DNA from: Brevinema andersonii
Lineage (GTDB): Bacteria; Spirochaetota; Brevinematia; Brevinematales; Brevinemataceae
Assembly: GCF_900112165.1 (NCBI RefSeq)
Contig: NZ_FOKY01000001.1
Location: 310,001 to 374,000, forward strand
DNA: 64,000 nt
Direction of reading: 5' to 3'
This document shows, piece by piece, positions 20,281 to 21,180 of the stretch (its first letter is position 1; every line of letters begins with the position of its first letter). The position numbers and the translations under genes are program-made. The notes below the pieces were generated by a model, which saw only the letters and a program-made list of their open reading frames with translations, searched no databases and had not been told where the DNA came from.

Positions 20281-21180
20281 CTAAAAGCCATCTTTTATCC
20301 CAATTATTGCTAATCCGATCAAAAATATCAAACTTATATAAAGAATATAATAAACATGCATAAAGAAAATATACTTGTAATGTTTTTTACCATAATCAGT
20401 AAGGAAAGTTTTTCTTTGAGGCGGCACTAAATAAAAAATGCTAATCCTGTAATATAGGATGATAAATAAGCAAAAAGATGAAAAGTCCAAGCAAAACCAA
20501 ATAGCATTGGAGATTTTGAATAAGGAAATGAAAAACATAATACTTTATAAGGATCGATATTCCCAAACGTCAAATATATTGTAACAAAAAAAGTACTCAG
20601 CGTCAATCCCAATGCATTTCTTAAAATAATTGTTTGATGTCTTTTCTGTTTCCACAACCACCATCGATCAGAATAATATCCTAACAAAAAAATGGATAAA
20701 AAGCTATCATTCGAGATAAACTAAGATAATAAGACACTTCTGAAAGATATCCCATTGCTAGTCCTACTAAAAAGCCATAATAACCATATAAATTTTTTTC
20801 TATCAGAAAGTAAAAGTGTAAAGGCATTGATAAGTTCCATGCAATCCATGAAAACAAATACCATAAAAGCCATAAAGGATGTAGTAAAATGATACATACG
20901 TTTTGGAAACAAGTACAAAAATTAATCTGAAAAAATATATAATTTAAGAAATTTTACCAATTCAAAACTTTTTTACGTTGCCGCACAAAATAACTAGATA
21001 AAAAAACAAGGCTTATGAAAAAGATAAATCGTAATATAAAAAGATTAGAGAGAGAGAGAGAGAGAGAGAGAGAGAGAGAGAGAGATTTCGAAGCGGCTCA
21101 ATAATATGGCTTATAACAACTAACATAATAAATAAAAATTTTGCATTGTCGAAGAAATAAGAACGAGCTTCTTTCTCCAT
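20281..21180 (-). pseudogene. Decayed acyltransferase family 3 membrane protein
   Basis: Reading the minus strand from ATG 21180 gives ARSYFFDNAKFLFIMLVVIS then HIIEPLRN, the typical N-terminus of acyltransferase-3 O-acetylases. The reading frame then runs into a (CT)19 tract that leaves it out of phase. Homologous sequence resumes in another frame (SSYFVRQRKKVLNW, then a TAA). It continues with LHPLWLLWYLFSWIAWNLSM, GFLVGLAMGYLSEVSYYLSL, LGYYSDRWWLWKQKRHQTI, FGFAWTFHLFAYLSSYITGL and LVPPQRKTFLTDYGKKHY to a TAG at 20281. Two of the frame changes fall at T-runs that are one base short. The family makes multi-pass membrane enzymes that acetylate surface glycans. It is almost certainly non-functional in this sequence. 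Confidence 0.75.
21047..21084. repeat. (AG)19 dinucleotide tract (CT on the coding strand)
   Basis: A 38-bp perfect AG repeat lying immediately after codon 32 of the acyltransferase remnant. Nineteen units (38 nt) put the downstream sequence out of frame; 18 or 21 units would restore the frame to the next homologous block, up to the TAA. This is the structure of a slipped-strand contingency tract. Confidence 0.97.

Follow-up and report, generated by a model that had tools for sequence, protein, structure and literature searches.

A decayed acyltransferase-3 gene with a (CT)19 tract in Brevinema andersonii, and the genome-wide set of CT/AG tracts that may switch surface-glycan genes

Phase variation through simple-sequence repeats (SSRs) is a known mechanism: in Haemophilus influenzae the switching of oafA is driven by a tetranucleotide repeat, and in Treponema pallidum the tracts are poly-G. 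oafA itself encodes an LOS acyltransferase-3 and is phase variable (PMC9558356), while the spirochaete T. pallidum possesses a large repertoire of genes whose phase variation is mediated by SSRs (PMC11868660). In Helicobacter pylori, sabA and oipA are CT-repeat contingency genes in which the repeat number sets the frame (PMC2715451; PMC10564699), and slipped-strand mispairing at the CT tract is described for sabA (PMC2715451). Slippage of an AG tract has also been proposed for the gene mmyCImod of Mycoplasma mycoides (PMC3498834). For Brevinema, a deep and barely studied spirochaete lineage, no report of phase variation was found among the best-ranked open-access matches for the genus name; the lineage would be new for the mechanism.

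Here we describe an acyltransferase-3 (PF01757) pseudogene of Brevinema andersonii, located on the minus strand at positions 20161-21180 of the window, i.e. the stretch of 64,000 nucleotides that was analysed (C1:310001-374000), within a genome of 1.5 Mb in 39 contigs. The remnant is full length and shows about ten frame changes, as derived from a frameshift-tolerant alignment and from ungapped blocks. Like H. influenzae oafA, which has on/off switching, it belongs with the acyltransferase-3 proteins that act on a surface glycan (the O-acetylation mentioned in a preliminary description is a guess at the family level); unlike oafA, it carries a CT dinucleotide tract and is dead in every phase. 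With H. pylori sabA and oipA it shares a CT tract in the 5' part of the coding sequence. Those two genes encode outer-membrane proteins, whereas many Brevinema tracts lie at glycan genes; moreover, 6-10 repeats have been shown to vary in sabA, whereas the Brevinema tracts have 16-39 repeats and are known from one genome. In mmyCImod the AG tract lies inside the gene and a frame-dependent stop follows just after it, as here (PMC3498834), but its ON frame is open, while in our case the own frame of the next homologous block holds a stop. Unlike T. pallidum, finally, the Brevinema genome combines poly-G tracts with long CT/AG ones. We infer that slipped-strand switching probably operates at the latter.

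Concerning the identity of the remnant, a Pfam search of the separate open frames of the window returned no family for any of the four pieces, and a domain search of the whole genome yielded no recognisable PF01757 gene. Since the separate frames have no Pfam match, identity was established via an intact homologue from a sister genus of the Brevinemataceae, a tract-free frame of 370 codons in the MAG of an uncultured Brevinema sp. (CAMQVI010000028.1), whose protein matches the PF01757 profile (1.4e-17, 64.2 bits, cut-off 31). In tblastn, each of the three frames of the region yields a match to this protein; the frameshift-tolerant alignment gives 181 identical residues out of 322, and 13 ungapped blocks in alternating frames, adding up to 288 codons, show 60% identity, which confirms the acyltransferase-3 assignment proposed earlier. 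The largest surviving homologous stretch (LGYYSDRWWLWKQKR...AFF; 20433-20684, minus strand) is 56% identical to the homologue. At its 3' side the remnant had been thought to end at 20281, and it extends in fact to about 20161, the position that corresponds to homologue residue 366, just before the end of an intact, convergent gene for an RpoD-like sigma-70 factor (18465-20150, plus strand, an open frame of 561 aa, named from sequence). At its 5' side, the block that precedes the tract (21086-21180, minus strand) is read in a frame that is opened by an ATG at 21180 and encodes MEKEARSYFFDNAKFLFIMLVVISHIIEPLRN before entering the tract. This block keeps K14-X10-H25, in agreement with the K/R-X10-H pattern in TM1 described for OafA/OafB-type acyltransferase-3 proteins (PMC9558356).

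Upstream of the remnant lie, on the minus strand, tRNA-Leu(TAA) at 21213-21297 and tRNA-Cys(GCA) at 21306-21376, both found by ARAGORN in the window and in the sister genome, followed on the plus strand by a gene for an SPFH/band-7-like protein (21495-22469, named from sequence) that is 81% identical to its sister-genome counterpart. Because the order SPFH protein, tRNA-Cys, tRNA-Leu(TAA), acyltransferase is the same in both genomes, the remnant and the sister-genome acyltransferase are positional orthologues. The two other sister genomes do not have the acyltransferase gene.

The tract is a pure T(CT)19 repeat of 39 bp on the minus strand at 21047-21085, located with Tandem Repeats Finder and checked for position and phase. 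Such a tract has a chance expectation of about 10^-18 per window, and the other CT/AG runs in the window that reach 3 units never exceed that number. The preliminary description was right about the repeat; the tract starts inside codon 32 of the frame from the ATG at 21180, i.e. after codon 31. Block 2 (YITIYLFHKPCF) begins at 21038. In the frame of this block a TAA stop at 21045-21047 (minus strand) spans the 3' end of the tract, the codons upstream of the block being TCT CTC TAA TCT TTT. The T of this stop is the final base of the tract and its AA are the two bases that follow, which makes the stop independent of the CT number, so that neither 18 nor 21 repeats would restore the next block, contrary to the earlier expectation. 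Downstream of the tract, the three phases run into a stop after one, 31 or 11 codons. As no tract length yields a full-length protein, the acyltransferase gene does not behave as an SSR contingency gene, and it is dead in every tract state.

The remnant alone would be an ordinary pseudogene; its interest lies in the genome-wide set of probably hypermutable repeats to which its tract belongs. The genome was scanned for CT/AG tracts of at least 6 units by two anchored pattern searches, and the stretches around the hits were taken for analysis. There are 14 such tracts, 13 of which are 32-79 bp long and one, in a phage-like region, 13 bp, with no intermediate lengths. CT tracts of at least 9 units are rare in the phylum, occurring in 11 of 296 genomes in a count restricted to C-first tracts; there are ten in the B. 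andersonii genome and none in three sister genomes. A spirochaete genome of a different family also has at least 9 long CT/AG tracts, where the expansion is apparently independent. Six of the 13 long tracts have a GT2 gene within 5 kb, a condition that applies to 11% of the genome (P 0.0016, with neighbouring tracts not being independent), and hence the long tracts amount to a repertoire enriched at surface-structure genes. The genes at or beside them comprise an FkbM methyltransferase, an FGGY kinase, GT2 genes, a Caps_synth-type transferase, a class II aldolase beside NTP transferases, an rfbF-type NTP transferase and a DegT/RfbH-like aminotransferase, as well as phoU and a xanthine/uracil permease. 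Several other tracts are found in intergenic or decayed DNA (C12:1147, C14:23599, C1:215480), thus expansion may not need selection. The tract lengths, known from this single genome, presumably vary.

Taken together, these data are best explained by a recently dead acyltransferase-3 at a tRNA-flanked site, whose tract is one of 13 that probably switch surface-glycan genes elsewhere, a reading to which we assign a probability of roughly 0.72. At the other genes, the CT/AG tracts would turn surface-glycan synthesis on and off by slipped-strand mispairing. The acyltransferase would once have been such a switch through its CT tract, long OFF periods would have relaxed selection on it, and indels at A/T runs would then have destroyed it. 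That the acyltransferase itself was switched by the tract before it decayed is a part of this scheme towards which we lean with some reserve. Accounted for in this way, the suggestion of a once phase-variable, now decayed gene agrees with the tract family near glycan genes and with the roughly nine further frame changes, its past switching being the conjectural part. If true, the locus would represent a contingency gene caught shortly after its irreversible loss.

The main rival is that the CT tract arose as a neutral microsatellite in the DNA of a gene that was already dead, and was never a switch here. The tracts in DNA without intact genes (those in C12, C14 and at C1:215480), the tract-free sister gene and the lack of any phase that reads through are all as this scenario predicts. 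However, the tracts are non-randomly placed near glycan genes, one of them lies inside an otherwise intact kinase gene, and a position early in a surface-glycan gene is the usual place of a contingency tract; we therefore consider a purely neutral origin unlikely, though worth serious attention.

How the gene decayed can be read from the frame changes. Where a tract and two single-base losses in T-runs had been reported, the alignment with the intact homologue counts ten frame switches between the 13 homologous blocks, the tract included. For seven of these ten switches there is an A/T run of at least 5 no more than 4 nt away, against an expectation of 27.5% (P 0.006). The divergence of the blocks by codon position (0.33, 0.20 and 0.59) is biased towards third positions, and the 288 aligned codons contain no nonsense codon, from which neutral substitution is limited to about 0.05 per site at most, a rough bound given that the blocks were picked for homology. 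Based on the third-position bias, the stop-free blocks and the frame changes at A/T runs, the decay looks recent and chiefly made of small indels. Missing mismatch repair was considered as a cause of tracts and indels and rejected: mutS (a frame of 847 aa) and mutL (577 aa) are intact in the genome, so wholesale loss of this system is not the reason. At a second MutS-type match (C20:1841-2203) the open frame is just 185 aa long, and the gene is possibly broken.

The same features, namely blocks free of nonsense codons and frame changes mostly at A/T runs, could be taken to indicate a live contingency locus, whose tract and T-runs just happened to be out of phase in the clone that was sequenced, as the preliminary description had offered as an option. 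This fails at the TAA that follows the tract in the required frame whatever the CT number, which keeps every phase from reaching block 2. In addition, about ten frame changes, many of them at A/T runs, would have to revert together, and these runs are just 5-7 long and common here (22 in this stretch of 1.1 kb alone), all of which makes a live locus very improbable. It is equally hard to believe that sequencing errors account for the T-run frame changes and that the gene is largely intact: homopolymer lesions are typical of some platforms, but about ten changes fall within 1 kb, the neighbours across 13.9-29.6 kb of the window keep long open frames in spite of being rich in such runs, and the domain search of the genome gave no PF01757 match.

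The other tracts include a likely working switch. Compared by tblastn with an intact relative of 434 aa, the FGGY kinase at C11:25186 shows homology at 54% up to an AG tract and at 41% in another frame right after it, and no other break. A gene whose sole change of frame falls right at the tract resembles, judged from the sequence, a clean contingency locus that is OFF; with the post-tract piece, Pfam and PDB sequence searches gave no significant match. The FkbM gene at C11:22712 is apparently ON, its tract being read through into a C-terminal stretch that we take to be FkbM-like. For the GT2 gene at C11:30339, the piece in the second frame matched no Pfam family, and the match to a paralogue ends at the tract. 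Two further AG tracts, that of the aldolase (L075:6259-6294) and that of phoU (L080:4725-4782), stop about 7 nt short of an ATG, where they would form an extended Shine-Dalgarno-like stretch that could affect translation initiation.

The genome also contains about 13 poly-G tracts of 10-21 bp (the G+C content of the window being 36%), examples of which are C4:4182-4202, C4:63242-63257, C27:3221-3236 and C1:53041-53054, with about nine others; they are probably a second set of switches. The poly-G at C27:3221 precedes a Caps_synth-type gene, and that at C21:13522 adjoins GT2 genes. Some 13 CT/AG and 13 poly-G tracts, many near glycan genes, are thus packed into 1.5 Mb, and if they vary, surface sugars would be diversified by slippage as in Campylobacter, Haemophilus and Helicobacter. 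Tentatively, the Brevinema lineage might possess a large set of surface-glycan switches, of recent evolution and made up of CT/AG as well as poly-G tracts, with its closest sampled relatives devoid of comparable C-first CT tracts and with some AG tracts tuning translation rather than frame; we regard this wider picture as possible, if doubtful.

A final point concerns the sequences around the rfb-type genes. In C26 the 79-bp CT/AG tract abuts an (AT)n tract (L083:5460-5576) and lies about 240 bp before an rfbF-like gene. In C23 (L081:6159-6342) an ATG stands directly before (CT)20 and begins a leader frame of some 60 codons; the stop codon of this frame and the start of the RfbH-like aminotransferase gene overlap (TAATG), a possible case of translational coupling switched by the tract. 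This same RfbH-like gene runs to the contig end in C11, C23 and C26, which suggests repeated glycan cassettes that break the assembly.
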